This document shows positions 8,669 to 25,461 of a stretch of DNA of 47,598 bases, piece by piece (position 1 is the stretch's first letter; every line of letters begins with the position of its first letter). Under the pieces are notes generated by a model. The model did not search any database and was not told the origin of the DNA. It was given only the letters and a program-made list of their open reading frames with translations. Location: the NCBI GenBank assembly GCA_017483765.1, contig JAFUVE010000059.1:1-47598 (forward strand), read 5' to 3'. This DNA is from Bacteroidaceae bacterium. GTDB lineage: Bacteria > Bacteroidota > Bacteroidia > Bacteroidales > Bacteroidaceae. The translations under genes were made by a program, and so were the position numbers.

Positions 8669-8825
8669 AAAATGATAAAATAATCAAATGCCTAAATAAA
8701 TCGTAAATCGTTAAATTGTCAATTTTCTTTCTTCAGCTGGTTTGTCCCCTGCCGTGTAGAAAAATGATAAAATAACCAAATGCCTAAATAAATAGTAAAT
8801 CGTAAATAGTAAATCGTAAATATCA
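8669..8825. repeat. duplicated AT-rich spacer with 7-bp repeats
   Basis: The spacer between the propeller lipoprotein and DUF6057 genes contains two versions of the same block, from about 8669 and 8761. Each reads AAATGATAAAATAA, then CAAATGCCTAAATAAAT, then TAAATCG/TAAATAG units in 7-bp register. The second copy has at least five 7-bp units running up to the DUF6057 stop codon. Related blocks recur at 11015-11142 and 43540-43808. Confidence 0.8.
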
Positions 8826-10949
8826 ATAAGTGTGTACACCTCTGGAGAAGTAGTAGAACCACCAGTAGGTGTCGCCGAACTGTGCAAAACATTCCTCACC
8901 CACTTTCCTTGTGAGCGCGTCGCCTTTCAGCTGTCCGCTGTATTGCTGAAGCAGCTGGCCTGTCACATTCTTGAAGCTGGCGTAGCGGTTGACAATCAGG
9001 TTTTTGTCGAACGGCATATGGCTCGTGTCCACTTTCTTCTCCAGGTCGCCGAAGAGGTAGGCTGCCTCCTGATAGTGGATGGGCATGGCTTCCTTCTCGT
9101 GCAGGTCTGCATATTTGAAGAAGCGTGGCCAGAAGAGGCTGATGTCCTTCTGGATGAGGGCGAATGCCAGGCATGCCTCCTGGAATTTCGGGTCACTGAG
9201 GTTCATGTGGCAGAAATAGCTGATGAGGTACACCTCCACGAGTCCCTGGTCGCCGTCAAGCGCGTTTTTGAAGGCATCGTACATAGGCCTGACGCACTTG
9301 TACTCATCCGTGGCCTCGTAAGCCTTTCGGTTGCGTAGCAGTTCCAGACGCTTCTCTGCCCATTCCTTATGGAAGGTGGTAGAGCGCAGGATGTCAATAT
9401 ATTTTGCGGCCACATTCTCCTCGCCTGCCATCATGGCGCAGCGGATCAGGTTCTTGTAGTCGTCAACGCGGAAGCCGTATTCCACACCGTTCTCGATACA
9501 CCAGCGGGTGGCGAAGTTGGTCTTTCCGTAGTAGAAGTAGTAGAGCGGTCCGCACGTGTTGCACAGGTTCACGTGGACGGAGTCGCGCTCCAGGTTTCCG
9601 AGGATGTCCTTCGGGTCCTTGTCCTTGTATTTCTCGTCGTCGTATTTCTTCTTCTCCTCAGTCTTCTTGTAGGTCCACACGGTCGGTTGGATGGTGCGGT
9701 TGTCGTATTTGAACATCGTGTTGCCTATGTTGCCGAGATGGAGGAGGGCAATGTTCTGGCCCATGATCATCTGGCGGGTGTGCGGTCCCTGCGACTCGCG
9801 GCTGGCTTCCAGTGCTCCTTCCCAGTCGCAGTCGGCGAGCTTGCGGTACATCTTCAGCTCGGTCTGGAAGTTCGTGTCGTCGAAGTGGTTGTAGTTGATC
9901 AGCAGGAAATAGCCGGCAAGCAGGACTACCGTGGCGATGGCGGCGAATGCAGGGGATTTGCCTGCGTCCCATTTTTTCTTTCCAGTGATGACGTTTAGAC
10001 TCATCGGCAGGATATAAGCCAGCGGCACCAGCGCAATGGCGACAAACAAGGCCCGTTTGGATCCTTCGATATACTTGTCGTTCTGGAAGATGGGCAGCAT
10101 CGCATAGTAGACGTCCTCCACACGTCCTGCCGTGTAGTGCTGGTAGTACATCTTCGGCACGATGATGATGGCGGCTACGGCAAGGATGACGGCCAGATAG
10201 CGGCTGATGTCTTTCCAGTTCGGCTGCTGGTCCTCTTCCGTTCCGATGAGCTGCTGCAGTGCCAAATAGCCAGCTCCGCAGAAGCTCCAGAATCCGATGA
10301 GCGGATAGAGCCCGACCACATAGAGGGCGATGAGCACGGCGCGGACGTAGCCTTTGTAGAGGTTGCAGATGTACATGCCTAACAACATGATGAGGATGGC
10401 CACGGTGTAGGTGAACCAGTAGCCGGGCAGTTTGATGTAGTACATCCAGTAACCCAGGCAGATTTCCGAGCAGAGCAGCAGCACCACGGGTGCCAGTGCG
10501 ACGGCGCTCCATCGGTTGCCGATGTGGAACACTTTCAGCGTAAGCAGGTAAATAAGACCCCACAGTGCTATAAGTATGAGTGAGCCGGCCCAGGGATAAT
10601 AGAAATACTGGGTGAGATAGCAGCCCAGCCACTGGCTGAAGCCGCCGACCACGCGCATACGGTCGTCAAAAAACTCTTGGTTGTTCTGCCAGATGGAATG
10701 CTCCTGGCATCCGTAGAGGTACTCGCTGTTCAGCACGGCCAGGTAGACAAATGCCACCACTGCGAACAGCAGGAAGCAAATCCATGGAATGAACTTTTCC
10801 ATCTTCGGGCTGAACGTGAAGAATGGCTTCTTCTCGCCTCCTTTGTTTTTTGATGACGAAGACGCTGTATGCACTGCCTTGGCTGTCGTCTTCGGCCCTT
10901 TCTTGTTGTTGGACTTCACGTTGCGGAAATCCGTTTTCTTTGTTGACAT
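8823..10949 (-). CDS. DUF6057-like membrane protein
   Basis: A 708-residue protein with a basic, Ser/Lys-rich cytosolic N-terminus (about 1-50), a cluster of about 10 transmembrane helices between residues 55 and 365, and a soluble C-terminal half of about 340 residues rich in aromatic and charged residues with helical-repeat character. It resembles the uncharacterised DUF6057 family; no catalytic motif is recognisable. The start chosen (MSTKKTDF) is 14 codons inside a longer frame because the extension looks like leader sequence. It lies upstream of the haem-motif lipoprotein, separated by the duplicated AT-rich repeat block. The membrane-plus-repeat layout might suit a scaffold or transport role, but that is a guess. 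Confidence 0.7.
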   Translation of the reverse strand: MSTKKTDFRNVKSNNKKGPKTTAKAVHTASSSSKNKGGEKKPFFTFSPKMEKFIPWICFLLFAVVAFVYLAVLNSEYLYGCQEHSIWQNNQEFFDDRMRVVGGFSQWLGCYLTQYFYYPWAGSLILIALWGLIYLLTLKVFHIGNRWSAVALAPVVLLLCSEICLGYWMYYIKLPGYWFTYTVAILIMLLGMYICNLYKGYVRAVLIALYVVGLYPLIGFWSFCGAGYLALQQLIGTEEDQQPNWKDISRYLAVILAVAAIIIVPKMYYQHYTAGRVEDVYYAMLPIFQNDKYIEGSKRALFVAIALVPLAYILPMSLNVITGKKKWDAGKSPAFAAIATVVLLAGYFLLINYNHFDDTNFQTELKMYRKLADCDWEGALEASRESQGPHTRQMIMGQNIALLHLGNIGNTMFKYDNRTIQPTVWTYKKTEEKKKYDDEKYKDKDPKDILGNLERDSVHVNLCNTCGPLYYFYYGKTNFATRWCIENGVEYGFRVDDYKNLIRCAMMAGEENVAAKYIDILRSTTFHKEWAEKRLELLRNRKAYEATDEYKCVRPMYDAFKNALDGDQGLVEVYLISYFCHMNLSDPKFQEACLAFALIQKDISLFWPRFFKYADLHEKEAMPIHYQEAAYLFGDLEKKVDTSHMPFDKNLIVNRYASFKNVTGQLLQQYSGQLKGDALTRKVGEECFAQFGDTYWWFYYFSRGVHTY

Positions 10950-11014
10950 TGTTTCGTTAGCTGATGATATGCTCGTCAAATTAAGCAACAATGAAATTGC
11001 AATATGACATAATA

Positions 11015-11144: not shown

Positions 11145-12104
11145 TTAGTTCCACGACCAAGCGTCCGGGTTGTATCCTTTCTCCACGTTGTCCTCCAGCT
11201 TGTCGGTCAAGTTGCAGAAGAAGTCGATATCTGTGAATTTCTCCAGCTCGTCTATGGACATGGCGTGCTGCTTCATCTGCTGCATGGCGGGGTAGGCGGC
11301 GGCATAGTTGCCGTGCTGTTCCAGCAGGAATCCGATTGACTGGTAGGTGTTGTTCTTGGTTACGGCAAGGATGGCCATGAAGTAATATTTCGGAACCGCA
11401 ACCTTCACCGCGTCTCCTCTCACATTGGTCGTCTCGAAATAGCCTTTGCCCTGGAATCGCTGACCTTCCTTGATGGTGCCGCCTTTGCAGACGTAGAGCT
11501 TCTTGAACGTGGACGACTTGCTCCAGTTGCGGATGAGCAGCTCGAGCTCAGCCCAGTAGTAGCTGTTGAAGTTGTAGAGCTGCGGCGACATGTTGCTCAT
11601 GTAGAAAGTCTGCATGTTGGCCTGGGTGGAGTAGAGTCGGTCGGCCGATGCGCAGAGGTGGCCGCGGGTGTAACCGCTCCCGCTGTAGGAGGTGGGGGCA
11701 AGCTGACAGGCTGACGGCAGGTTGACGTCGGCGCTCCATGCGTCGCTGCGGCTGCCGCTACCCACTTTCGTCGTGTCGTCGAAGGTGAAGGCCACCCACC
11801 GGCTGTGACACCACGCCGAGTCGTACTCGAAGCAGTAGTTCATCACGGTTTTGCTCGCCAGATCGTTCATCTTCGCCCAGTGGGAGACGAAGAGTAGGCC
11901 TTTACCTGTTCTTACGTGGGGCACTTCCAGACGCATTACGTCGCTGTTTGTTGTCCGAAGTGCTAAGTTGCTATTTTTGTTCGACTTGTCTTTCACTTCT
12001 GTCGTGCTCTCTCCGTCTCCGTTATCGTCGCTACACGACGCAAGCATGCCCGGCATGAGGATGCCGAGCATGACAAGCAGTATCAGATAATATAGCTTAT
12101 TCAT
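11145..12104 (-). CDS. DNA/RNA non-specific endonuclease, lipoprotein
   Basis: A 319-residue lipoprotein (lipobox LASC, mature Cys24) with the NUC1/EndoG beta-beta-alpha-metal fold. The active-site motif is RGHLCASADR, with catalytic H149 and D155 nearby, and the metal-ligand region NMSPQ...N...W..LE follows at about 171-188. Such enzymes cut single- and double-stranded DNA and RNA with little sequence preference. Lipidation should tether it to the outer membrane, possibly facing out. It follows the five-unit OB-fold lipoprotein gene by only 9 bp, so the two are almost certainly cotranscribed with the TonB receptor. That context suggests degradation of extracellular nucleic acid for uptake rather than a toxin or defence role. 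Confidence 0.88.
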   Translation of the reverse strand: MNKLYYLILLVMLGILMPGMLASCSDDNGDGESTTEVKDKSNKNSNLALRTTNSDVMRLEVPHVRTGKGLLFVSHWAKMNDLASKTVMNYCFEYDSAWCHSRWVAFTFDDTTKVGSGSRSDAWSADVNLPSACQLAPTSYSGSGYTRGHLCASADRLYSTQANMQTFYMSNMSPQLYNFNSYYWAELELLIRNWSKSSTFKKLYVCKGGTIKEGQRFQGKGYFETTNVRGDAVKVAVPKYYFMAILAVTKNNTYQSIGFLLEQHGNYAAAYPAMQQMKQHAMSIDELEKFTDIDFFCNLTDKLEDNVEKGYNPDAWSWN

Positions 12105-12113
12105 TGTTGTGGG

Positions 12114-14303
12114 TTATCGTCTTTTAACGTCTGCAGTGCCTATCGTTTTGTTTCCCCAGGATGCGTAGGTCGGGCTCTTGAGGCCGCACACGCCGAAGTA
12201 TTTTTCGATTGAGCCATTTATGATTACTTGTTGTTTATAAGTTGCTCCTTGGTTTGTGTAAATGCTAAGTGCACTACGGAAATCTCCAGAAGGGAGCTGA
12301 ACTAATAGACAATTAGTATAATCATTTTCAAGTATATCATCGGCAATAAGTATCACAGCCTCTTCTTTTTCTGACTTGTCATCAAATTTTACTGTATTTA
12401 TGGAGTTACCGCTTAAGTAGCCCACAATATAACCACTTACATAGGCTTTAGTTTTTGCATCTGGATTATTAGTAAAAATTGCCTGTGCGTCAGCTACGGT
12501 ATAAGGATAGTGCAACGTTCCGTCGCCTTCTGTGTCCGTCGGAGAGGGTGTGGGGGTATCGCCGCCACTGGTCGATCCGTTGAGTGAGTAGAGATATGCC
12601 TCCTTCTGTGAGGTTTCGGGCGTGTTGCCACGGAAGTTCATCAGCTTGCCGCAGAACACCACCTCGTCACCTACTTTTGGCATCGTGCCCTCTGTGTAGG
12701 GCTGGTTGCCGAAGTACAGTGCGCGGTAAATCTGGAACTGGTTGGTAGTGGTTCCGTCGTCGGAGATGTAGCAGGTGATGTTACCAAAGTATTCTCCTGT
12801 GCTGTTGTTTACAGTGTTGTAGTTCTCCTTGATGCTCACCACTTTGCCTTTCACGTATACGTCCTTGTCGGTCTTGGTGTCTGATGCCAGGGCATTACAT
12901 ACCTTGATGGCAGCCACGCAGTTGTAAGGGCTGTTGACGGTTCCGTCGCCAGTGGCCTCACCGGAGGGCTCTTCGTTACCGCTGCCTTCCACCACCTTAC
13001 CGTTCAGAGAGTAGAGGTATGCCTCTTTCTGCACGGTCTCCAAGGTGGTGCCATAGTTGCTGACGTATTTCGTCACCTTTCCGCAGATAACCACGTCGTC
13101 ACCTGGCTGCAGCAGGTCGCCGGTGCCGTCATACTCTTTGTTTCCAAGATAGAGGGCGCGGAAAATGTAGAACTGGCCGTTGCTGCTTCCGTCGTCTGAG
13201 ATATAGTAGGTGGCGTTGCCGTAGTATTGGCCGGTATTTGGGTTCTTGGCGTCGTAGTTCTCCTTGATGGACGACACTTTACCTTTGATATACACCACGT
13301 TGGAGTTGGTGTTGTCCGCCAGGCTGTTGGCCAGCTGGTTGGCAGCCACTGCGTTGTAAGGATTGTCCTTGGTTCCGTCGCCGGTGGCCTCGCCAGAAAC
13401 AGGGTCGCTCGGTTTTGATGCCTGACCGTTGAGGAAAGCCAGCTGGCTGTCCTGAGTAAACTCCTTTATCGAACCAGAGAATAAAGTAAGCTCACCATAG
13501 ACAATGACCTCATCGCCAACTTTCAAATCATCTTTATTTTCGAAATCAGCACCTCCTAAACCTTTTCCACGGTAAACTTCAAGCTGCCCGGCTGAGGTGC
13601 CGTCGTCTGAAATGTAGTAAGTGAGGTTGTGGTATCGGTTGAATTGTTCGTCGTCTATATCGTCGACTCTTGATACGATACCTTTTACAAAAACTTTTTT
13701 ACCAGCATAGTCGCCTTTGTCAATAAAGTCGTTTGCGGCTGAAACGTTATAAGGATCTTCAAACGTACCACTTCCTTTAGGTTCGGCCTGGCTGTCGAAC
13801 GGACTGCATTTCTGGTCATTGAGCTGAAGAAGCCAGCTGCCTTGTGTCACCTCTGCGAAAGAGCCGTAGAGTGTGAGCTTCCCCCATACGATGACGTGGT
13901 CGCCCACTTTCAAGTCTGAAGGACTGTTGAAATTGGCACCTGCCAGTCCCATTCCGCGGTAAACCTCCAGTTGGTCGCTTGCCACTCCCTCTTCATCAAT
14001 CGAGCTTTCGTCGGCGATGTAGTAGGTGAGGTTGTGGTAGCGTGAGAACTGCTCAGAGTCGATGTCGTCAATCTGCACTACGATACCCTCCACATACACG
14101 TTGGAACTGCTGTAGGTTCCGCCGTTGATAATATTCAAGGCGTCAGCTACGGTGTAAGGCTTTTCGGCCGTACCCTCTCCTTCGATGGTTGTGTTGGCTT
14201 CCTCGGGGCTTAACACATAATATGGTGACGGCACGTCGTCGCATGCGGCGAAGAGCCCGATTGCCAGAATCGGCAACATCAGTTTTAAGAAATACTTTTT
14301 CAT
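12114..14303 (-). CDS. lipoprotein with five OB-fold-like units, ending in DUF6359
   Basis: A 729-residue lipoprotein (lipobox FAAC, Cys21). It consists of five related units at about 42-165, 177-293, 308-435, 452-576 and 592-715. Each begins G(D/E)GT...PY.V..A and continues with a Y/V-x-G-x-V strand, YYI(A/S)DDG and VGDxVIxxGKL, a pattern like YhcR-type OB folds. Units 1-2 resemble each other (EQFSRYHNLTYYI, LEVYRG), as do 3-4 (KENY, GQYYGNATYYISDD), and unit 5 is a DUF6359-type module ending SIEKYFGVCGLKSPTYA. OB folds commonly bind nucleic acid or oligosaccharide; next to the nuclease gene, surface capture of nucleic acid is the likeliest role, though unproven. Spacing is 9 bp to the nuclease and 64 bp from the DUF5689 gene. 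Confidence 0.78.
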   Translation of the reverse strand: MKKYFLKLMLPILAIGLFAACDDVPSPYYVLSPEEANTTIEGEGTAEKPYTVADALNIINGGTYSSSNVYVEGIVVQIDDIDSEQFSRYHNLTYYIADESSIDEEGVASDQLEVYRGMGLAGANFNSPSDLKVGDHVIVWGKLTLYGSFAEVTQGSWLLQLNDQKCSPFDSQAEPKGSGTFEDPYNVSAANDFIDKGDYAGKKVFVKGIVSRVDDIDDEQFNRYHNLTYYISDDGTSAGQLEVYRGKGLGGADFENKDDLKVGDEVIVYGELTLFSGSIKEFTQDSQLAFLNGQASKPSDPVSGEATGDGTKDNPYNAVAANQLANSLADNTNSNVVYIKGKVSSIKENYDAKNPNTGQYYGNATYYISDDGSSNGQFYIFRALYLGNKEYDGTGDLLQPGDDVVICGKVTKYVSNYGTTLETVQKEAYLYSLNGKVVEGSGNEEPSGEATGDGTVNSPYNCVAAIKVCNALASDTKTDKDVYVKGKVVSIKENYNTVNNSTGEYFGNITCYISDDGTTTNQFQIYRALYFGNQPYTEGTMPKVGDEVVFCGKLMNFRGNTPETSQKEAYLYSLNGSTSGGDTPTPSPTDTEGDGTLHYPYTVADAQAIFTNNPDAKTKAYVSGYIVGYLSGNSINTVKFDDKSEKEEAVILIADDILENDYTNCLLVQLPSGDFRSALSIYTNQGATYKQQVIINGSIEKYFGVCGLKSPTYASWGNKTIGTADVKRR

Positions 14304-14367
14304 ATTGTTGTCTTTTTTATTTCGTTGTTAATATATATGATGTATATGATGTGTTGTGAGTTGACGG

Positions 14368-15711
14368 TTAACGTTGCTTTGCCGCTGCGGTTCCAATCTC
14401 GGTGCCGCCCCATCTTGCGTAGGTGGGGGACTTGATTCCGCAGACGCCGAAGTATTTCTCGATAGACCCGTAGATGAGGACTTTCTGTCCCAGGATGGCT
14501 CCCTGGCTGGTGTAGATGTCGAGTCCTTCGCGGAACTCGCCTTTCGGCAGCTGCACGGGCACGCATTTCGTGTAGTCTGTCTCCTCCGCGCTGTCGGCAA
14601 TCAGGATTTCGGTCTCCTGGGCTGTCGGCACGCCGAAGGTGGCTGTGCTTTCGTTCAGGCCGTTGCCCCCTACGTAGCCCACCACATAGCCGCTGACGTA
14701 GGCTTTGGTGGCTGTTCCGCCGTTATTTTCGTATAAGGCCTGGGTCTCGGCGATGTTAAAAGGATTGTCGATCGTGCCGTCACCGCCTTCGTCGGGTGTC
14801 GGCTGGGGGGTAGGCTCAGGTTCTGGATCATCCATCACCTCAATCACGTCTCTTTCGGAGCGCAGGGAGAACTGCCATGTGTTGCTGTAGCGGGTGAGCA
14901 CGGCGGTTACGTTGACTTTCCCGGTCGGGATGGGCTCGCTGGAGAAGTCGCTCAGGGCGCTCTGGCGCAGGATGTACTTGGTGCCGTTGACATAGATGGT
15001 GTCGTTCACTCCGTTACCTGCGTCGCGGTCGCTGTAGACAGCATAGACCTTGCGCTTGCGGTAGCCGTGGATCTCGGCATTTTTCACTGTCACAAGCATC
15101 GGACACCATTTGTGCATCATGTCGTTGCTGCTGTTCTGGTCGAGCCAGGCCTTGTTGATTTCTACGGGCATCAACTCTTCGGCGTTGTCAGTGAAGCCAA
15201 TCACCTCGATGTTGCTCTCAGCCTTGAACTTGGGCATGCCTCCCAGGCGCTTGTTGCCGCCAGAGGTGGTGTAGGGGGTGCCTATCTTGGCGAGGTTTCC
15301 GTAGGAACCGATATACAGTCCGTTCAGGTTCACTCTCACGTGTGTGCCGACGGGGTAGGTGCACCAGAGCGAGTTGTCGTTGATGCCCACCACGATGCAG
15401 TCGTCGCCTTTACGCACGTAGATGGACTGGTAGAGGTTTCCGCTGATGTCGTTGGCGCAGACATAGCCGTCGAAGATGACGTCTTGTTCGATTGCCACCC
15501 AACGGTTGCGGTTGTTGGCATCGGCGATGACGTTCTTGTACATCTCCTTCAGTTCTCCCAGTGTGGTGTTGCAGCCCGTGGCCTGCTGGTCGGCGTCATA
15601 AAGGTCTAAGTCCGCATTGGGATCGTCGTAGTCAAACTTGTTGCACGACTGCAGTACGGCAAGGCCCAGCGCCAGTCCACATATCAGTATATATATTGAT
15701 TTTGTTTTCAT
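14368..15711 (-). CDS. DUF5689 + DUF6359 lipoprotein
   Basis: A 447-residue lipoprotein, starting at MKTKSIYILICG with lipobox LQSC (Cys23); an upstream in-frame ATG would add a charged, non-signal extension and was rejected. The N-terminal part (about 35-290) looks like DUF5689, an OB-type domain, and includes the strands VIFDGYVCANDISGN and YQSIYVRKGDDCIVVGIN. After a Pro/Glu-rich linker (about 293-305) comes a DUF6359 module whose end, SIEKYFGVCGIKSPTYA, nearly matches the end of the next protein. It lies 51 bp downstream of the TonB receptor gene, where SusD-type partners often sit, so it may be the surface lid or binding partner of that receptor. Confidence 0.78.
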   Translation of the reverse strand: MKTKSIYILICGLALGLAVLQSCNKFDYDDPNADLDLYDADQQATGCNTTLGELKEMYKNVIADANNRNRWVAIEQDVIFDGYVCANDISGNLYQSIYVRKGDDCIVVGINDNSLWCTYPVGTHVRVNLNGLYIGSYGNLAKIGTPYTTSGGNKRLGGMPKFKAESNIEVIGFTDNAEELMPVEINKAWLDQNSSNDMMHKWCPMLVTVKNAEIHGYRKRKVYAVYSDRDAGNGVNDTIYVNGTKYILRQSALSDFSSEPIPTGKVNVTAVLTRYSNTWQFSLRSERDVIEVMDDPEPEPTPQPTPDEGGDGTIDNPFNIAETQALYENNGGTATKAYVSGYVVGYVGGNGLNESTATFGVPTAQETEILIADSAEETDYTKCVPVQLPKGEFREGLDIYTSQGAILGQKVLIYGSIEKYFGVCGIKSPTYARWGGTEIGTAAAKQR

Positions 15712-15762
15712 CTTCTTCTGTGATTTTTGGTGTTTACTTTTCCTTTCCTTCTCCACTGGGGC

Positions 15763-18396
15763 TTAGAAGCGGTAGCCTATGTTCAGGAATGCGGTAATGG
15801 GATAGGCGTAGGCGTACTTGGAGTTATAACCGAACTGATAGGAGCGTACCTTGTTGGTCTTGTCGAAGTCGTCGTTACGGCTCTGCTCCGATCCGCGCAG
15901 CTTCATATTCTGGTTGTTCGTCACGTTGTTCACGTTCAGGTTGAAGTTCAGGGAGCGGCCGTGGCGCAGGTTGATCATCTTGCCGATGGAGATGTCGAGC
16001 ATGATGGCGTCGTCGAACTCCTCCTGGCTCTTGGCCCTGTAGCCGGCGATGTTGCCGTTCTCGTCCTTCAGCACGGCGCCTTTCATCTTGTCCACTGCCC
16101 ACGACGCGTTGCCGTTGGAGTCATAGGTCTTGGTCACGTCGGGCATCACGTCGGTCAGACGGAGGTAGGGAGAGAAGTAGATGTAGTTGCGGTCGTAGTA
16201 ATTGGCGCGGGCCTCGAGAAACCAGCCTTTGATACGGTATTTGGCACCGATGCTCAGGGCGGTCAGAGGGGTGCATCCCACCTTCATGCCGTCGGTCACC
16301 ACCTGCAGTTTCTGATGGTGGACGGCATCCCACCAATGGGGTGTCTGCTCTGCGTCCGACTTGTCGTAGCAGATGACGGCGTCGGCGTTGTTGGCGTACT
16401 TGGCGTCGGAGATGGTTCCTACGAAGTCAACGGAGAAGTCGGAGGTGAAGCGGTATTCTGCCGTCAGCTCCACGCCGTAGTGGCGCTTCTTGATGTTGGT
16501 CATCGACAGGTAGCTGTATTCCTGCTTGATGTCGTCGAAGAACTGTGACTGCTCGGTCACGTCGTCGAACTGGGTCAGGAATCCTTTCACTTGTCCGCGA
16601 AGTTTGCCGAAATTGAATTTGTAAGAGGCTTCGGCAAACATGTCGAACTCGTCTTTCAGGTCGAACACGAAGGCGTTGCGGGTCTGAACGTTCAGGAAGC
16701 TGACGTTGGCAACGGGCGGACGGAACTCGAATCCTCCGCTGAGGTTGAATAAGTGGTGGGCACCGGCCGACACACCGAGCTGGGCCTTCATGCCACCGCC
16801 CAGGAACTTGGCCGTCCCGCTGCTGCCCTTCGAGTGTTCAGGAGCACGTCCGTTGCGCATCTTGCCCACGCGCTCTATGGTCGTTCCGTTGATGTTGGCG
16901 TTGAACACTCCCGACACATTATTTTTGGTGAAGGAGTAGGATGTCCATGCCTGGCCGCGGTTCACGTTGATATGGTAGTTGTAGCCGAACTTGTCGCCTT
17001 TGCGGATCCTGCGGTTGGGGTGGTCGAGGTCGTTCTGTGCCTCGTCGCTGTACGTTCCGTAGTCGCTGGAGGCGAAGCGGTCGATGTCGGTATGGTAGTT
17101 GGCGCCCAGCAGGTCGTTCATGGTCTTGTAGAACATGCCGGTTGTGTGGTTGAGGTTGATTCCGGCGTTGACGGTGGTGTAGCGGTCGATATTATGCTTG
17201 AGTGTGGACCCCAGGTTCCATGCGAACTGGTCCTGGTGTGACTCCTCGAGATAGTAGACGGCCTCTCCGCCATTGTGCACGCTGGTGCGGTTAATCAGGT
17301 ACATCTTGTCCCAGTTAATCTGGCGGTTCCGCTCGCTGGCTCTCCAGTGGTCCACGTAGTTGCTCCACTCGTTGTACTCCCATTCGTTGGGGACTACGCC
17401 GCTGTAGACGTTGAACACGTTGCTCGGCATGTAGTGGTAGTAGTCGGGGCGCGGGTCGGCTGCGTTGTTCGTACGGTTGATGTAAGTCTGGCCGTACTTG
17501 GCGTAGCGGAAGATGTTGGTGGTGGTCAGCTTTGTCTCTGGGCTGATGTTCCAATCCCAGGTCAGAATGGCTGTCGGCTCCATGGTTTTACGTACTCGTG
17601 AGCTGCGTTTCTTTCCATTTTGATAACCCCAGAACGGGTTGTAGTAGTGGGAATTGGCAAGCCAATAGGCCTCTTCCGTGGTCCAGCTCGATGTGGCCTG
17701 TTCGGTTGGGGCGAAGAGAAGGGAGAGTGAGAGGTTGTGATAGCGGTTGAAGAAACGCTCCGCTCCGAGGTAGACCGCTGCGGCATGCATGTAGGTTCCT
17801 TTCTGCTGGCCTTCCTCGCCGTAGCGGATGTTGGCAGCACCGGCAAACGCCCATCCGTTTTTAATTCCGGTGGAGTGTGCAAACATAAGACGGCCGATGT
17901 AGTTGCGGTTGGTCAGTGCAAGCGACAGACGGGAACCGGTTCGCATCAGGCTCGGACGGATATTCAAGTTGGCACCGCCGCCCAAATCGTAGTAGTTGAT
18001 GCCATTTTGCTCGAACGGGGTGATACCCTGCTGGTTGCGTGTCACGTCGGACAGGCCGCCAAAGAGCGAGGAGAAGCTGAACTGCCCGCGGATCACGTCG
18101 TTCACCTGAGCGCCGTTCACTGTTGTCGTACGATAGCGCTGCTCATAGTTGTGAGGACTGTAGTAGGAATGACCAAACCGGAAGTTGGTCTTCGTCAGGT
18201 ACAGGTCGTCATTGTAGGATGCCGTGGACGATGCGCTCTGGGTCACCGTGGACTCTTCGTCTAAGTCGAAGTCCGTGATGCCAAATGCCTCTATGTCGTC
18301 GTCATCATCTGCAGGAATACTGTCGGCGGGGGTCTGGCCCCAGGCCGACAAGCTCAGATACAGAAGCGGCATGATTAACAATTGTCTCTTTTTCAT
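15763..18396 (-). CDS. TonB-dependent outer-membrane receptor
   Basis: An 877-residue outer-membrane protein with a signal peptide (about 1-20, ending AWG), a strongly acidic mature N-terminus (DDDDDIEAF), a plug-like region (about 60-190; NGAQVNDVIRGQFSFSSLFGG) and a long beta-barrel of alternating aromatic strands ending LNIGYRF, the C-terminal aromatic signature. It lacks the N-terminal carboxypeptidase-regulatory-like domain of SusC proteins, and no SusD gene is nearby. TonB-ExbBD would power import of a ligand; the neighbouring nuclease and OB-fold lipoproteins suggest nucleotides or oligonucleotides. It is the first gene of the leftward unit, about 110 nt after an exact TATATTTGC promoter element shared back-to-back with the rightward nuclease gene. 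Confidence 0.85.
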   Translation of the reverse strand: MKKRQLLIMPLLYLSLSAWGQTPADSIPADDDDDIEAFGITDFDLDEESTVTQSASSTASYNDDLYLTKTNFRFGHSYYSPHNYEQRYRTTTVNGAQVNDVIRGQFSFSSLFGGLSDVTRNQQGITPFEQNGINYYDLGGGANLNIRPSLMRTGSRLSLALTNRNYIGRLMFAHSTGIKNGWAFAGAANIRYGEEGQQKGTYMHAAAVYLGAERFFNRYHNLSLSLLFAPTEQATSSWTTEEAYWLANSHYYNPFWGYQNGKKRSSRVRKTMEPTAILTWDWNISPETKLTTTNIFRYAKYGQTYINRTNNAADPRPDYYHYMPSNVFNVYSGVVPNEWEYNEWSNYVDHWRASERNRQINWDKMYLINRTSVHNGGEAVYYLEESHQDQFAWNLGSTLKHNIDRYTTVNAGINLNHTTGMFYKTMNDLLGANYHTDIDRFASSDYGTYSDEAQNDLDHPNRRIRKGDKFGYNYHINVNRGQAWTSYSFTKNNVSGVFNANINGTTIERVGKMRNGRAPEHSKGSSGTAKFLGGGMKAQLGVSAGAHHLFNLSGGFEFRPPVANVSFLNVQTRNAFVFDLKDEFDMFAEASYKFNFGKLRGQVKGFLTQFDDVTEQSQFFDDIKQEYSYLSMTNIKKRHYGVELTAEYRFTSDFSVDFVGTISDAKYANNADAVICYDKSDAEQTPHWWDAVHHQKLQVVTDGMKVGCTPLTALSIGAKYRIKGWFLEARANYYDRNYIYFSPYLRLTDVMPDVTKTYDSNGNASWAVDKMKGAVLKDENGNIAGYRAKSQEEFDDAIMLDISIGKMINLRHGRSLNFNLNVNNVTNNQNMKLRGSEQSRNDDFDKTNKVRSYQFGYNSKYAYAYPITAFLNIGYRF

Positions 18397-18444
18397 ATAT
18401 GTTTCGATTAGTTAGTATATCCTTGTTTGGTGGTTGTGTCGCTG

Positions 18445-18489
18445 ATTTTCAGACCTTTTTGTCGAAGCGGGATTACCGCTGCTGAAAAT
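18445..18489 (-). promoter_or_regulatory. nested hairpin in TonB-receptor 5' leader
   Basis: AGCGG (18466-18470) and CCGCT (18476-18480) flank a 5-nt loop. An outer pair, ATTTTCAG (18445-18452) and CTGAAAAT (18482-18489), encloses it. Both would form in the leader RNA about 50-90 nt before the receptor start codon. There is no following T-run, so it is not an obvious terminator. Confidence 0.4.
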
Positions 18490-18506
18490 GCGTAATATGA
18501 ATTATT

Positions 18507-18541
18507 GCAAATATACAAATAATTTCTTTAGACTTAACAAT
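18507..18541 (-). promoter_or_regulatory. promoter for the TonB/OB-fold/nuclease unit
   Basis: GCAAATATA at 18507-18515 reads TATATTTGC on the minus strand, an exact TAnnTTTGC. A weak ATTG at 18538-18541 is the nearest upstream element, at a slightly long spacing of 22 nt. It predicts a leader of about 100 nt before the receptor. Confidence 0.6.
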
Positions 18542-18577
18542 ATTTTCATAAAATTTGAAAATTTTTTCAAAAATTAC

Positions 18578-18608
18578 TTGTTTTCTAAATAATATTTCCG
18601 AACTTTGC
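18578..18608 (+). promoter_or_regulatory. promoter for the secreted nuclease/dockerin unit
   Basis: A TTG at 18578-18580 (in ACTTG) precedes GAACTTTGC (18600-18608) by 19 nt, one mismatch from TAnnTTTGC. The leader to the ATG at 18741 would be about 125 nt. Confidence 0.55.
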
Positions 18609-18740
18609 ATTATTAAGTCAAATTGTGGGTTCGCCACAAGTGCCATTGGCCGTTCTTTCATGCCGACATGAAGCGGGTCAATATAACGCTTACAAAATAA
18701 CTAAAAACTGAATTATTCATACTCTAACACCCATACCCCT

Positions 18741-19838
18741 ATGAAAAACTTGAGATATATCATCGTGCTGGCGGCACTGACGGCCGTGGCTGGACTCCTG
18801 TCGTTCACTCCCAAGCCGGCGGCTAAGCAGATTGTAGTGCCTATCGCGTTCTATAACCTCGAAAACCTGTTCGACACCATACACGACGAGGTGTGGGACA
18901 CGGTGGACGGAGTGCCGGTGAAAATTGCCGACAAGAACGACTATGAATACCTGCCAGACGGGACAAACAGCTGGAGCTCCATGAAATACTGGGCAAAGCA
19001 GAAGAACATGTCGTATGCCCTCTCGCAGCTGGGAATTGACAGACAGGTCAACGGACCGGCCATCATCGGCGTATCGGAAATCGAGAACCGCAGGGTGCTG
19101 GAAGACCTCGTGAAGCAGCCGGCGCTGAAAGACCGGGGCTACAAGATCATCCATGAGGAGGGCCCCGACCGACGTGGTGTGGACTGCGCGTTCCTTTACA
19201 ACCCACGTATGTTCAAATACCAGCGGCATAAACTCATACCTTATATATATCCGGACAACGACACCACTCACGCCACACGTGGATTCCTGCTCGCCACGGG
19301 CACCATCCTGAAAGAAGAGGTGAACGTCATCGTCAACCACTGGCCGTCGCGTTTCGCCGGGTCTTTCTTCCGCGAGCATGCAGGCAAGCAGGTGCGAGCT
19401 ATCGTGGACTCACTGCAGCGGCAGAATCCGGATGCCAAGATCATCATCATGGGCGACATGAACGACGACCCCGACAACAAGTCGATGGCGGAGGCACTGG
19501 GTGCCAAGCGCAGCGAGAAAGACTGTGGGCCTCAGGACCTCTGGAACCCCTGGTGGGACCATCTGCGCAAGCGCGGAGTCGGCACACTCAAGTACGACGG
19601 GGCATGGAACCTCTTCGACCAGATTGTGTTCACCGCCAACTTCCTCAAAAACGTGAAGAACGACGGATATAAGTCGCTTACATACTTCACGCATGAGGTC
19701 TTCAACCGCGACTTCCTCATCCAGCAGGAAGGGGCATACAAGGGAAATCCTCTACGCACCCATGCCGGCGGTACCTGGCTCAACGGCTACTCCGACCACT
19801 TCCCGACTATCGTCTACTTCGCCAAGGAAGTGGAGTAG
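18741..19838 (+). CDS. exported endonuclease/exonuclease/phosphatase-fold enzyme
   Basis: A 365-residue protein with an N-terminal hydrophobic export segment (about 5-22) and all the landmarks of the EEP (DNase I-like) fold: YNLENLFD (38-45), GVSEIENR with metal ligand E113, RRGVDCAFLYNP (144-155), VNHWPSR with H200, GDMNDDP with D239 and N241, and YSDHFP with D352/H353. Such enzymes hydrolyse phosphodiesters in nucleic acids, phospholipids or small molecules; the NLENLFD form is common in bacterial secreted nuclease-like members. It is transcribed away from the TonB receptor from a shared regulatory region and precedes the dockerin protein gene by 102 bp. I infer a periplasmic or extracellular nuclease or phosphatase that complements the NUC1 enzyme. 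Confidence 0.88.
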   Translation: MKNLRYIIVLAALTAVAGLLSFTPKPAAKQIVVPIAFYNLENLFDTIHDEVWDTVDGVPVKIADKNDYEYLPDGTNSWSSMKYWAKQKNMSYALSQLGIDRQVNGPAIIGVSEIENRRVLEDLVKQPALKDRGYKIIHEEGPDRRGVDCAFLYNPRMFKYQRHKLIPYIYPDNDTTHATRGFLLATGTILKEEVNVIVNHWPSRFAGSFFREHAGKQVRAIVDSLQRQNPDAKIIIMGDMNDDPDNKSMAEALGAKRSEKDCGPQDLWNPWWDHLRKRGVGTLKYDGAWNLFDQIVFTANFLKNVKNDGYKSLTYFTHEVFNRDFLIQQEGAYKGNPLRTHAGGTWLNGYSDHFPTIVYFAKEVE

Positions 19839-19858
19839 GGACACCACAACCAGAATGA

Positions 19859-19898
19859 CTGGATACTCTAGAATCTCTAGAATATCTAAAACCTCTTT
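19859..19898. repeat. 9-bp-period CTAG repeat
   Basis: CTGG (19859), CTAG (19868), CTAG (19877), CTAA (19886) and CTTT (19895) follow a strict 9-bp step with AAT/AAA spacers. It lies between the EEP gene and the dockerin protein gene. Confidence 0.7.
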
Positions 19899-19940
19899 AG
19901 ACGTTTCGCTATCTACTAACAACTTAATATCAAAAACATT

Positions 19941-22538
19941 ATGAAAAGACATCTACAACTGATTTTTTCTTTTGCCCTGATGGCGTTTTTTGCTATCGGT
20001 GCGAATGCGGAGGAATTCTCGTGGGATTTCTCTAAAAAAACTTATTCTGAGGCATCGGAAACTAAGGTCGTATGGGAAAGCGACTATGCCACACTGGTGT
20101 CGGAACAGACTGATAAAGACGGCACAAAAGCTAATAACTATCTGGGCGGTGATGAGAACAACCGTACCAGCAGTCGTTTCTACAAAGGGTGTGTGGTGAC
20201 AATCACTCCTGCAGATGGTTATGAAATTTCTTCAGTGGTGTTTGAATGCACGACCAACGCATACGCAAAGGCGTTGAAGGATAGCGCATGGGAAAACGCT
20301 GAAGCGGGACAGGCTGATGCCATTGTCACGGTGACTCCGACGGATGGCACGAAACCCTTCTCTGTCACTATGAGCGGTACTTCTGGCTTAAAAACAGTGA
20401 CCGTCAACTACAATCAGGCTGGTGGCGTCAAAGCTCCTGATATCTCACCTGTGACGGGAACATATGAAGAAGACCAGACCGTTACGATCACTGCTGAAGA
20501 GGGACTGACCGTATATTATTCTTTAGACGATGGTGAGTTCCAGGCTTATTCTGCGCCGTTCACTGTAAGTAAAACCACAAAGGTGAGCGCTTATGCAACA
20601 GATGCAGCCGGAAATCAAAGTCCTACAACAGTCAGCACCATCACTATCGGAGCTTATATCTATCAGGCTGAGTTCAAGAACAACCCGGGCGATTTCACCA
20701 CCAACAACGTGACGATGTCTTCGTCAATGACATTCGTCTGGACAAACAACAGCTATGGATGGGTAGCTTCTGCTTTTGTTGGAGGCGCTGCGCAGCAGGC
20801 TGAGTCCTGGTTGATTTCACCTGCATTCAAGACTGAGGCCGGTGGCGAAATAATTCTTTCGTTCATGCATGCGCTGAATAAGGGCTCAAAGGATGCTTGC
20901 GGACTGTATGTGTCAGAGGACAAGACGAACTGGACTGAGGTGACCGTGCCTAACTGGCCGGCTGGAACCAACTGGGATTTCATTTCCTCAGGCGATATAG
21001 ACCTCTCATCCTATGCGGGAAAGACCATTTATCTGGGCTTCAAATACACCAGCACTACTTCAAACGCACCTTCTTGGGAAATCCAGGAACTGCAACTTAA
21101 GGGTAAGGGCAGCTATAATCAGGCTGAGGCACCTGAATACACCACTATCGCTGCAGCAAAGGCAGCCGCTACTGTCGACAAGATTACTTCTGTCCTGAAG
21201 CTGAAAGGTGTGACTGTGGTTTATGTGAACGGATCGTCCACATACATCACCGACGGAACTGACGGATTCCTGCTCTATGGCTCTTCACTCGGACTGAAAC
21301 AGGGTGAGAACGTGGACGTCACCGTCACTGGGCAGCTCTATCTCTACAATGGTCTGCCGGAACTTTCTGTATCCAAGGTGGATCAGACGACTGTCAACTC
21401 TGAGAACAACGTGGTGGAGCCGATGGTAGTCGAGGTGGCTGAGCTCCTCGCTAACCCGATGAAATACTCCAACCTGCTTGTGAAGCTTGAAGGCGTCGGC
21501 ATTGAGAATGAAACATGGACCGAGCGTAATGTGACGTTGATCCAGGACGGTGAGGAATGTGGTATGCGTGACAACTGGAATATCGCTACCGACATGACGT
21601 TCAAGACCGATATGGATTATAACATCACCGGCTTCGTGTCTATCCACAACGCTGATGTCCAGCTCTATCCCCGCACCACCGACGACATCGAGCTCATCAC
21701 CTCTCAGGCTAAGCCGGCTTCCGCATGGAAGGACGGCGAGACTGAGGTGACATCTCTTGAGTTCTCGTCTCTCGACGACGCGGTGAGCGCTGTATTCAGC
21801 ACGGACACTGACGGCGCGGTGACATTCTCCTCTTCCGACGAGAGCGTGGCTACCGTAGACGAGCAAGGAAAGATCACATTGGTGGGTGCCGGCTTGTGTA
21901 CTATAAAAGCAGAGACCGCTGAGACCGCTGCCTTCCAGGCTTCTACTGCTTCACTCGACATCAAGGTGATGATTCTTCAGGGCGACGGAACGAAGGAGAA
22001 CCCGTACACCATCGCCGACGTTCAGCTGCTTTACGACGAGACCACGCCGTCTGAGCCCGTTTGGGTCACCGGTTATATTGTAGGCTGCGTGAACGGAGCT
22101 CTCAGCAAGCCGGCTTGGACTGCCGACAGCGAGAACATCACGAAGACCAACTTCATCATCTCCGACAACAAAGATGCCGAGAGCGTGGACGAGTGCATCC
22201 CGATGGAGCTGGCAAAGGGCGAGATCCGCGACAACAACAACCTCGCTGATCATCCGGAGAACCTGGGTCAGCAGATGAAGGCGCTTGGCGTCATCACGAA
22301 GTACTTCTCCGTTTGCGGTATCAAGAGCGTGACCGAGCTCATCATCGGCGAAGAGCAGCAGCCGGAGACGAAGAAGGGCGATGTGAACGAGGACACGAAG
22401 GTGGATATCTCTGACATCGTGGCTGTCATCAACCAGATTGCCGGAACTGCCACCTACAAGAACGCTGACGTGAACGGTGACAACAAGGTGGATATCTCCG
22501 ACATCGTGGCCATCATTAACATCATCGCAGGACAATAA
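19941..22538 (+). CDS. secreted multidomain protein with DUF6359 and C-terminal dockerin pair
   Basis: An 865-residue exported protein with a signal peptide (about 1-23, ending ANA). Visible modules in order: an N-terminal beta domain (25-155); a chitobiase/hexosaminidase C-terminal-type Ig module (about 160-235; VYYSLDDGEFQAYSAPF); a jelly-roll of choice-of-anchor-J type (240-390; WLISPAFKTEAGGEIILSF); an OB-fold-like unit (400-545); a bacterial Ig (Big-2-like) unit (about 550-675); a DUF6359 module (677-800; KYFSVCGIKS); and two dockerin-like repeats near the end (GDVNEDTKVDISDI and ADVNGDNKVDISDI), each with a calcium-loop pattern. No catalytic residues are recognisable, so it is probably a binding or scaffold protein. 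Its DUF6359 links it to the lipoproteins of the divergent unit. Confidence 0.78.
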   Translation: MKRHLQLIFSFALMAFFAIGANAEEFSWDFSKKTYSEASETKVVWESDYATLVSEQTDKDGTKANNYLGGDENNRTSSRFYKGCVVTITPADGYEISSVVFECTTNAYAKALKDSAWENAEAGQADAIVTVTPTDGTKPFSVTMSGTSGLKTVTVNYNQAGGVKAPDISPVTGTYEEDQTVTITAEEGLTVYYSLDDGEFQAYSAPFTVSKTTKVSAYATDAAGNQSPTTVSTITIGAYIYQAEFKNNPGDFTTNNVTMSSSMTFVWTNNSYGWVASAFVGGAAQQAESWLISPAFKTEAGGEIILSFMHALNKGSKDACGLYVSEDKTNWTEVTVPNWPAGTNWDFISSGDIDLSSYAGKTIYLGFKYTSTTSNAPSWEIQELQLKGKGSYNQAEAPEYTTIAAAKAAATVDKITSVLKLKGVTVVYVNGSSTYITDGTDGFLLYGSSLGLKQGENVDVTVTGQLYLYNGLPELSVSKVDQTTVNSENNVVEPMVVEVAELLANPMKYSNLLVKLEGVGIENETWTERNVTLIQDGEECGMRDNWNIATDMTFKTDMDYNITGFVSIHNADVQLYPRTTDDIELITSQAKPASAWKDGETEVTSLEFSSLDDAVSAVFSTDTDGAVTFSSSDESVATVDEQGKITLVGAGLCTIKAETAETAAFQASTASLDIKVMILQGDGTKENPYTIADVQLLYDETTPSEPVWVTGYIVGCVNGALSKPAWTADSENITKTNFIISDNKDAESVDECIPMELAKGEIRDNNNLADHPENLGQQMKALGVITKYFSVCGIKSVTELIIGEEQQPETKKGDVNEDTKVDISDIVAVINQIAGTATYKNADVNGDNKVDISDIVAIINIIAGQ

Positions 22539-22670: not shown

Positions 22671-25337
22671 TTAATTCCTGAACACCAGTCCTTCTGCCTC
22701 GGCGTCCACCACGATTTCGTGGTCGCGGTCCACTTCGCCGGACAGGATCTTCTTCGACAGGTCGTTGAGCAGGTAGCGCTGGATGGCCCGCTTCACTGGC
22801 CTTGCTCCGAACTCGGGGTCGAAACCGGCCTTGCCCAGGAACTTGATGGCGGCATCGGTCAGACGCATCTTGATGCCGTTGTCGGAGAGCATACGTGCCA
22901 CACCGTCCACCTGCATCCTGACGATGTCGTTGATCTGCTGCTCGTTCAGTGGGGTGAACATGATGATCTCGTCGATTCGGTTCAGAAACTCCGGACGGAT
23001 CTGCTGCTTCAGCATCGTCAGCACCTCTTTCTTGGTCGACTCCATCAGTTCGTCGCGCTTGGTGCGAAGTGTCTGTTCGCTGGCGGCTCCCGACTTCTCC
23101 AGATTGTATAGTCCTTCGAAGCGCTCCTGAATCAAGTGGCTGCCCATATTCGAAGTCATGATGATGATCGTGTTCTTGAAGTTCACCGTACGTCCCTTGT
23201 TGTCGGTCAGACGTCCGTCGTCGAGCACCTGAAGCAAGATGTTGAACACGTCGGGATGGGCTTTCTCGATTTCGTCGAATAGGATGACAGAGTAGGGCTT
23301 ACGCCTTACGGCCTCGGTCAGCTGTCCGCCCTCGTCGTAACCCACGTATCCGGGAGGGGCTCCGATAAGCCGGCTGACGCTGTGCTTCTCCTGATACTCG
23401 CTCATGTCGATACGTGTCATCATGCTGTCGTCGTCGAAGAGGTAGTTGGCCAGGGCCTTCGCCAGCTCCGTCTTTCCCACACCGGTGGTGCCGAGGAAGA
23501 TGAACGACCCAATCGGTCGCTTAGGGTCCTGCAGTCCGGCACGGCTCCGTCGTACGGCGTCGCTCACGGCGAGGATGGCCTCATCCTGACCTACCACGCG
23601 CTTATGCAGCTCTTCCTCCAGGTGGAGCAGCTTCTCGCGCTCGCTCTGCTGCATCTTCGTCACAGGGATGCCGGTCCAGCGGCTCACAATCTCGGCGATG
23701 TCGTCGCTCGTCACCTCCTCCTTCACCATCGCGTCGCCGCTCTGAGTGCGGGTCAGCTCCTCGTGGATGGACTGGTTCTGAGCCTCCAGCGACTGGATTT
23801 TTCCGTAGCGGATCTCAGCCACCTTGCCGTAGTCGCCTTCGCGCTCGGCACGGTCGGCCTCGAATTTCAGCCGCTCAATCTCCTGTTTGTTGTGCTGGAT
23901 CTTGTTGAGCAGCGACCGCTCTGCCTCCCATTTCGACTTGTACTGCTTCTCTTCTTCCTTGAGGTTGGCTATCTTCTCTTCCACGTCCTTCAGACGCTGG
24001 CTTGCGCCCTTGTCCTTGTCGGTGGATGCGCCTGCCGCGCTGTCAACGTCGCGCTTGATGGCCTCACGCTCGATTTCCAGCTGTTTCAGCTGACGGCTGA
24101 TGTTGTCAAGCTCCTCTGGCACAGAGTCACGCTCCATCCTCAGCTTGGCGGCGGCCTCGTCCATCAGGTCGATGGCCTTGTCAGGCAGGAATCGGTCGGT
24201 GATGTAGCGGTTCGACAGCTCCACGGCGCTGATGATGGCCTCGTCCTTGATACGCACCTTGTGATGGTTCTCGTACCTTTCCTTCAAGCCTCGCAGGATG
24301 CTGATGGAGTCTACCACGTCCGGCTCATCCACCATCACGGTCTGGAACCTCCGCTCCAGCGCCTTGTCCTTCTCAAAGTATTTCTGGTACTCGTCGAGGG
24401 TGGTGGCGCCGATGCTGCGCAGCTCTCCACGGGCCAGCGCCGGCTTCAGGATGTTGGCGGCGTCCATGGCGCCCTCGCTCTTGCCGGCTCCCACCAGCGT
24501 GTGGATTTCGTCGATGAAAAGGATGATGTTGCCTTCGCTCTTCACCACTTCGTTCACCACGCTCTTCAGACGCTCTTCAAACTCGCCCTTGTATTTCGCA
24601 CCGGCAATCAGCGCGCCCATGTCGAGTGAATAGAGTTGCTTGTCTTTCAGGTTCTCCGGAACGTCGCCACGCAGGATCCTGTGGGCCAGACCTTCCACGA
24701 TGGCGGTCTTACCGGTTCCCGGCTCACCAATCAGGATCGGGTTGTTCTTTGTACGACGGCTCAATATCTGAAGCACACGGCGGATTTCCTCGTCACGACC
24801 GATGACCGGGTCCAGCTTGCCGCTCCTGGCTGCGTCTATCAGGTTGATGGCGTATTTCGACAGGCTCTGGTAGGTGTCCTCGCTGCTCTGACTCTGCACT
24901 TTCTGGCCGTTACGCAGCTCGAAGATGGCCTGCTTCAACGCCTTCTCGCTCACGCCCATGCCCTTCATCATCTTCGACACGCTCGTGTCGACCAAGAATA
25001 AGGCAAGCAGCATGGCCTCGAGCGACACGTACTCGTCACCCAACTCTTTCGACAGGGTGATGCTCCGCTGCAGCACCTCGTTGGTCTCACGGCTTAGATA
25101 GGGTTCGCCGCCGCTCACTTTCGGGAACGACTGCGACTCGCGCAGGATAATGTCGGAAAATGACTGGGCATTGATACCCAGCTTGCTGAACAGGAAGTTG
25201 GTGACGTTCTCCCCAACGTTCAGGATTCCGCTCATCAGGTGGACTGGCTCCACGCTCTGCTGACCGTTACGCTCCACCAGGCTGATGGCTTCCTGAAGTG
25301 CCTCCTGCGATTTGATTGTGAAATTCTTGAAGTTCAT
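22671..25337 (-). CDS. clpB: ATP-dependent chaperone ClpB
   Basis: An 888-residue cytosolic AAA+ disaggregase that, with DnaK, rescues aggregated proteins after heat or other stress. It has the Clp N-terminal repeat domain (1-145), a first AAA module with Walker A GEPGTGKT at 204-211, a long coiled-coil middle domain (about 400-545, Lys/Glu-rich), a second AAA module with Walker A GTTGVGKT at about 614-621, and the C-terminal D2-small domain. The start is set at [13 protein letters not shown]: just before it the minus strand reads AAGGAGGAAAATT, a strong Shine-Dalgarno rarely seen elsewhere in this window. A longer frame 15 codons upstream is rejected on that ground. It appears monocistronic, ending at the bidirectional terminator. 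Confidence 0.96.
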
Positions 25338-25461
25338 AATTTTCCTCCTTTTTTTTTTTAGTTTCTGACTTCTTTCCATCAAGATTTGTTCCTTTATGTT
25401 ATAAATGTCATTTTGGCATTGTTTTCTGTCAAATTGACTGCTTTTCTCGGGGCAGTTTTTA

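Follow-up and report, generated by a model that had tools for sequence, protein, structure and literature searches.

A locus of six genes at positions 11,145 to 22,538 of contig JAFUVE010000059.1, from a Bacteroidaceae bacterium (assembly GCA_017483765.1), probably encodes an outer-membrane importer of nucleic acid, most likely DNA, together with its own nucleases. Surface lipoproteins would guide the polymer, and scavenging would be the likeliest use. The contig, 47,598 nucleotides long and referred to here as the window, belongs to an assembly of 3.1 Mb that is 70% complete. The locus is made up of the following features:

11145-12104, minus strand: NUC1 lipoprotein nuclease (PF01223, 143.9 bits, above cut-off)
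12114-14303, minus strand: lipoprotein with OB-fold-like units and DUF6359 (PF01336 48.8 bits, DUF6359 91.3 bits, above cut-off)
14368-15756, minus strand: DUF5689 and DUF6359 lipoprotein, directly downstream of the receptor (DUF5689 169.6 bits, DUF6359 94.6 bits, above cut-off)
15763-18396, minus strand: TonB-dependent-receptor-like outer-membrane barrel of family 1, 877 amino acids (assigned through relatives; no Pfam receptor match of its own)
18397-18740, no strand: divergent intergenic region between the receptor and EEP genes, 344 bp (gap between open reading frames)
18741-19838, plus strand: exported EEP-fold enzyme (PF19580, 330 bits, above cut-off)
19941-22538, plus strand: secreted DUF6359/dockerin protein (DUF6359 93.8 bits, Dockerin_1 35.4 bits, above cut-off)

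A preliminary description of this DNA had reported six genes in two divergent units. The list of open reading frames and a Pfam scan confirmed all of the coordinates, including the divergent promoter gap of 344 bp and the 9 bp between the OB-fold and NUC1 genes. The six-gene grouping is real. PF19580 and DUF5689 were each found in a single copy in the assembly, and both of these copies sit at the locus, which makes a chance grouping unlikely. The ending KYFxVCGxKS, previously thought to tie the two arms together, was present in three of the proteins; it lies inside the DUF6359 domain and therefore reflects a common domain rather than a separate tag. The reported lack of SusD held, as no SusD domain was detected in the six proteins at an E-value of 0.1.

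Relatives of the locus were collected from named genomes, keeping the best 80 of at least 577 relatives, a sample biased to near kin. The receptor gene was called in 79 of the 80; the locus in which it was not called (L305) was left out of the counts, and loci with short flanks were excluded from each denominator. The relatives were mostly rumen and gut Prevotellaceae and Bacteroidaceae, and the recurrent gene order was EEP, receptor, DUF5689 lipoprotein, OB-fold lipoprotein and NUC1. DUF5689 was encoded within 2.5 kb downstream of the receptor in 68/75 loci and EEP within 4 kb upstream in 57/70. An OB/DUF6359-matching gene lay within 6 kb of the receptor in 47/57 loci and NUC1 within 9 kb in 31/48, and EEP or NUC1 was present in each of the 39 loci whose flanks reached 8 kb on either side. 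A quick tree divided 63 receptor relatives, after removal of L106_5 as a copy of the receptor already present in L093, into two families. Family 1 is a clade of 38 members that holds the window receptor (Shimodaira-Hasegawa-like approximate likelihood-ratio test support of 100), with DUF5689 at most three genes away in 36 of them. Family 2 has 25 members, one of which has DUF5689 within three genes. In a second set of 34 family-1 loci, which included the window and seven loci of the same genus, DUF5689 was found in 33, EEP in 27, NUC1 in 11, and EEP or NUC1 in 27. Among 19 family-2 control loci, DUF5689, EEP and NUC1 were found at one locus each, and EEP or NUC1 at two. L106 was excluded from this control since the EEP of a nearby family-1 locus falls within 8 kb; with L106 the EEP count would be 2/20. 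The receptor, DUF5689, OB/DUF6359 and nuclease genes thus recur together across relatives. The preliminary description had named a receptor found mostly without nucleases as the pattern that would speak against its model, and both sets revealed the opposite.

The association was also seen at the level of whole genomes. A draw of 148 genomes across the phylum contained 22, the window's included, with a strong family-1 receptor match. PF19580 was present in all 22 compared to 60 of the 126 others, and DUF5689 in all 22 compared to 53 of the 126. Among 36 genomes of the same class, PF19580 was found in 21/21 with the receptor and 3/15 without it. One further family (f32, Chlorobi-like as judged from one locus) has 29 listed genomes with PF19580, none with a strong family-1 receptor match.

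DUF5689 is linked to nucleases elsewhere as well. Domain matches, irrespective of overlap, were counted in 20 hand-picked DUF5689 proteins from 20 loci without a family-1 receptor; Exo_endo_phos (EEP) was matched in 17, Endonuclease_1 in two and a type IX secretion tail in 14. At receptor loci, the unrelated nucleases NUC1, endonuclease I and EEP substitute for or accompany each other at the same position. The Aureibacter tunicatorum receptor gene has two DUF5689 genes after it, then those for endonuclease I, PF19580 and another EEP protein. At the Flammeovirga kamogawensis locus, EEP and PF19580 stand ahead of the receptor, and proteins with DUF5689/DUF6359 and with DUF5689-endonuclease I come after it. 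Bacteroides finegoldii encodes, in order, a NUC1-matching protein, one other protein, the receptor, DUF5689 and EEP; in Prevotella oral taxon 299 the receptor, DUF5689, OB/DUF6359 and NUC1 are all present, and the 20 kb covered gave no EEP match. The presence of unrelated nuclease families at one position suggests that nucleic acid is the substrate. The 1,100-amino-acid receptors beside DUF5689-EEP fusions (families f39 and f42) were considered and rejected, as they are of the PF25183 type and were unmatched by the family-1 profile. In L155 and L160 the order is a PF25183 barrel receptor, a DUF4397 lipoprotein and then a DUF5689-EEP fusion, a parallel arrangement that gene sizes suggest for most of L156-L162.

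The NUC1 and EEP proteins of the window retain conserved residues of their folds. The nearest solved relatives of the NUC1 protein are NucA and EXOG, and its His149, Asn180 and Glu188 were invariant in 10/10 aligned sequences. We take the histidine of the (D)RGH motif and the later asparagine to be active-site residues; the residue preceding the arginine of this motif is a threonine in 4/10 sequences, namely the window protein and three close relatives. In the EEP enzyme, E41, D239, N241, D352 and H353 were invariant in 16/16 sequences and are presumably of the catalytic type for the fold, the roles being assigned from general knowledge. The enzyme scored 19.2 bits against NF033681, whose cut-off is 300. 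Two NUC1-matching proteins near a receptor were L311:713-2317, annotated as a fimbrillin family protein, and L044:817-2460.

The identification of the 877-amino-acid protein as a TonB-dependent receptor comes from its relatives. The family-1 relative L086 matched PF00593 at 32.8 bits (cut-off 27), and Plug matches slightly below cut-off were found in L308, L091, L093 and L097; neither Plug nor barrel was matched by Pfam in L102, L105 and L309. An N-terminal CarboxypepD_reg domain is absent from the window receptor and present in L042, L045, L091, L102, L105 and L308. Profile searches of the PDB with the receptor and with DUF5689 gave weak matches only. Two weak partial receptor matches were found in a phage collection, and seven records of a plasmid collection matched the family-1 receptor, four of which were examined.

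The lipoproteins bear signs of surface location. A surface-export signal, SDDDD, has been proposed for B. fragilis lipoproteins (PMC5080379), and the window NUC1 carries a similar stretch, SDDNGD, after its cysteine. In the best-80 set, a lipobox whose cysteine is followed by two or more acidic residues was found in 34/45 NUC1, 46/65 OB-matching and 39/71 DUF5689-matching proteins, counted with a loose pattern that misplaces some sites. The window EEP enzyme is exported and has no lipobox, which was found in 9/63 EEP proteins of that set. The open reading frame of the DUF5689 lipoprotein begins with GTG; its likely start is an internal ATG at about 15711, where the alignment to NF052645 begins. 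The OB-fold lipoprotein had been described as having five units. Pfam passed two OB stretches, and four units followed by DUF6359 can be made out by eye. The dockerin protein combines choice-of-anchor J, Ig-like, weak DUF5689 (25.2 bits, cut-off 28.6), DUF6359 and type I dockerin domains; a 72% identical copy is found in L035, and weaker matches lie beyond EEP in several loci of the same genus.

A published gene pair, overlooked in the preliminary description, is likely kin to the window's receptor and DUF5689 lipoprotein and points to DNA, perhaps to the uptake of long DNA. As described in PMC8459023, Riemerella anatipestifer RA0C_RS04915 is an outer-membrane protein with CarboxypepD_reg, and the next gene, RA0C_RS04920, encodes choice-of-anchor J, DUF5689 and DUF5017. 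Markerless deletion of either gene reduced natural transformation below detection, and the authors speculated that the two proteins bind and import DNA; RS04915 homologues are reported there solely in Flavobacteriaceae (PMC8459023). The same receptor-to-DUF5689 order is found in the window. In L102 and L105, from the same class and a different order, the receptor is of the CarboxypepD_reg type with a sub-threshold SdrD_B match, and DUF5689 is in the protein encoded next to it. The DUF5689 lipoproteins of L102, L097, L091 and L308 contain choice-of-anchor J, and DUF5017 scored above cut-off in L091 and below it in L105 and L308; the A. tunicatorum pair has the same make-up. A DUF5017 search in 12 genomes of the f38, f39 and f42 groups, which by gene content and kinship labels seem not to be flavobacteria, found none, and no control matched either. 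An extra gene between the two pair genes is reported for F. columnare, and L092 and L095 match this report with a gene between the receptor and DUF5689 genes. Riemerella tonBA and tonBB mutants are likewise reported to be both lowered in transformation, with an iron defect in tonBB only (further sources: PMC8383284, PMC11495043). In openly licensed PubMed Central literature we found one paper naming DUF5689, PMC8459023, and no account of this locus in Bacteroidales. Family-2 receptors were rejected as the Riemerella match, as 18/19 lacked DUF5689 nearby and 5/9 scanned had a PF01663 neighbour. At L116, L119, L120, L121 and L122, a family-2 receptor adjoins a PF01663 nucleotide pyrophosphatase/phosphodiesterase, perhaps a second receptor-phosphoesterase pairing.

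Collectively, these results partly support the earlier model of nucleic-acid capture, cutting and import, in that a receptor and lipoprotein locus without SusD is built around nucleases and appears to be aimed at nucleic acid. We infer that proteins of the locus bind nucleic acid and import fragments of it. In the mechanism we propose, a TonB-driven barrel would work with the surface DUF5689 and OB-fold/DUF6359 lipoproteins, which would keep hold of the polymer or guide it. Outside the cell, nucleic acid would be cut by the surface lipoprotein NUC1, and the barrel would carry it into the periplasm as pieces or strands. Trimming of these, in the periplasm or outside, may be the task of the exported EEP enzyme. 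In a rumen- or gut-type organism, scavenging for phosphorus, nitrogen, carbon or bases would be the likeliest use.

Several observations weigh against nucleic-acid import. The Pfam scan of the window receptor matched no Plug or barrel model. The best PDB match of the EEP profile was a weak one to nocturnin (E 0.0034); EEP-fold enzymes act on many phosphoesters, and the window enzyme could act on others. PF19580 was found in 60 genomes lacking the family-1 receptor, so this enzyme is not confined to the system. No nuclease lay within 8 kb of the receptor in 7/34 loci of the second set. Each of these seven genomes still had PF19580: one about 9 kb from the receptor, four at 16-41 kb, one at about 320 kb, and the last on a separate contig. 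L049 and L229 had no partner genes near the receptor, the upstream flank of L229 being short. The OB-fold lipoprotein is strongly acidic (isoelectric point 4.37, charge about -45 at pH 7) and most DUF5689 domains are neutral or acidic, with an isoelectric point above 8 in 4/46; charge is therefore no predictor of nucleic-acid binding. Kinship with the Riemerella pair, though likely, was judged by architecture and gene order only, and the tonBB effect on transformation was attributed to iron by its authors.

The receptor and DUF5689 lipoprotein might instead take up DNA across the outer membrane during natural transformation in Bacteroidota, replacing type IV pili and secretin, with nucleases that merely process the DNA coming in. 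We regard this as a serious alternative, albeit a rather unlikely one. Transformation requires the Riemerella pair, which by its published description shares this architecture and order, and the intervening gene of F. columnare recurs in L092 and L095. DprA matches were found in 22/22 family-1 genomes (one split in two pieces), a secretin in only 4/22, and ComEC is present in the window's genome. The DprA and secretin counts are compatible with a role in transformation and do not demonstrate one; DprA and ComEC were each matched in 10/14 control genomes and are thus little informative. In the window's assembly, DprA was matched twice, on G000:C1 and on G000:C90. A surface NUC1 that destroys DNA suits nutrition better, no competence test for the window's relatives was found in the literature, and F. 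johnsoniae could not be transformed in the conditions of PMC7965970. We therefore consider nutrition likelier than transformation in the window organism.

It is less probable still that extracellular DNA is broken down by the nucleases to obtain phosphate or nucleosides or to loosen biofilm, while the receptor imports a small product, such as a nucleotide, an oligonucleotide-metal complex or a phosphate ester, rather than a polymer. TonB receptors usually carry small ligands, and a PF01663 phosphodiesterase adjoins the receptor in five family-2 loci. Low-phosphate systems of the SusCD-like and TonB kinds have been reported for Flavobacterium (PMC8115612), where two endonuclease I genes are phosphate-induced, yet listed as orphan. 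In contrast, handling of a polymer is suggested by the OB-fold and DUF5689 surface lipoproteins encoded next to the receptor, and the Riemerella genetics point to DNA itself. That the ligand is not nucleic acid at all, with EEP a phospholipid or inositol phosphatase and NUC1 a chance neighbour, would fit the broad EEP fold, the acidic lipoproteins and a receptor without recognised domains, but is very improbable given that nucleases of three unrelated families are found repeatedly at the locus or in fusions with DUF5689, and that NUC1 is found in 31/48 named loci.

The site of the locus is stable within the genus. It is flanked by a DUF6057 gene (8823-10991) and a ClpB-like gene (22671-25382), matches to which were found in 5/7 and 6/7, respectively, of the same-genus loci (L035-L041). 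An Rfam scan of the 344-bp gap gave three matches, all below gathering scores and at chance level, and no RNA element. A short perfect inverted repeat, TTGTGG/CCACAA, was spotted by eye at 18623-18639 in the EEP gene leader. When 47 EEP/receptor gaps were searched for a shared promoter motif, only AT-rich words emerged, which are unconvincing as the loci are related: GATNNTTG/CAANNATC occurred in 23/47 gaps compared to 9/84 in the comparison set, and CAAATATC in 16/47 compared to 3/84.

How DNA passes the outer membrane of Bacteroidota is unsettled as far as we could find, and PMC8459023 gave a speculative model for the pair of one pathogen. Pairs of this kind, accompanied by conserved nucleases, can now be placed in Prevotella, Segatella, Bacteroides and Cytophagia, which makes the question accessible in harmless laboratory strains. 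We tentatively suggest, as a possibility held with less confidence than nucleic-acid import by the window locus itself, that across Bacteroidota DNA may cross the outer membrane via a TonB-driven receptor and DUF5689/OB-fold lipoproteins, rather than a pilus and secretin. One gate might then serve both feeding and transformation, with the window holding its nuclease-rich rumen version. If nucleic-acid import is correct, nucleic-acid polymers are among the substrates of TonB receptors, with consequences for gene transfer and for nucleic-acid turnover in the gut and rumen.

Among known systems, the Riemerella pair RA0C_RS04915/RS04920 (PMC8459023) is similar in having an outer-membrane CarboxypepD_reg protein followed by a DUF5689 surface protein, the layout of L102, L105, L091 and L308. 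It differs in that the window receptor lacks CarboxypepD_reg, the window lipoprotein ends in DUF6359 rather than choice-of-anchor J/DUF5017, and the window adds an OB-fold lipoprotein, NUC1 and a dockerin protein; the transformation role is known in Riemerella only. The NCBIfam M949_1556 lipoprotein family (NF052645), in whose name we take M949 to be a Riemerella tag, resembles the DUF5689 lipoproteins directly beside the family-1 receptor in L102 (717 bits) and L105 (753 bits), whereas the window lipoprotein scores 101.9 bits, under the cut-off of 475. In extracellular nucleases of the ExeM/NucH type, as in YhcR, an OB-fold-like domain is joined to a nuclease domain; in the window these domains are on separate proteins beside a receptor. 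The Flavobacterium phosphate systems (PusCD; PMC8115612) likewise combine TonB transport with phosphoesterases, but have SusD-like proteins and phosphodiesterases, and their two nucleases are orphan genes. Finally, the locus resembles a Sus-like polysaccharide utilisation locus in clustering a TonB-type barrel, surface lipoproteins, and surface and exported hydrolases, and differs from it in having no SusD and in carrying nucleases in place of glycan enzymes.

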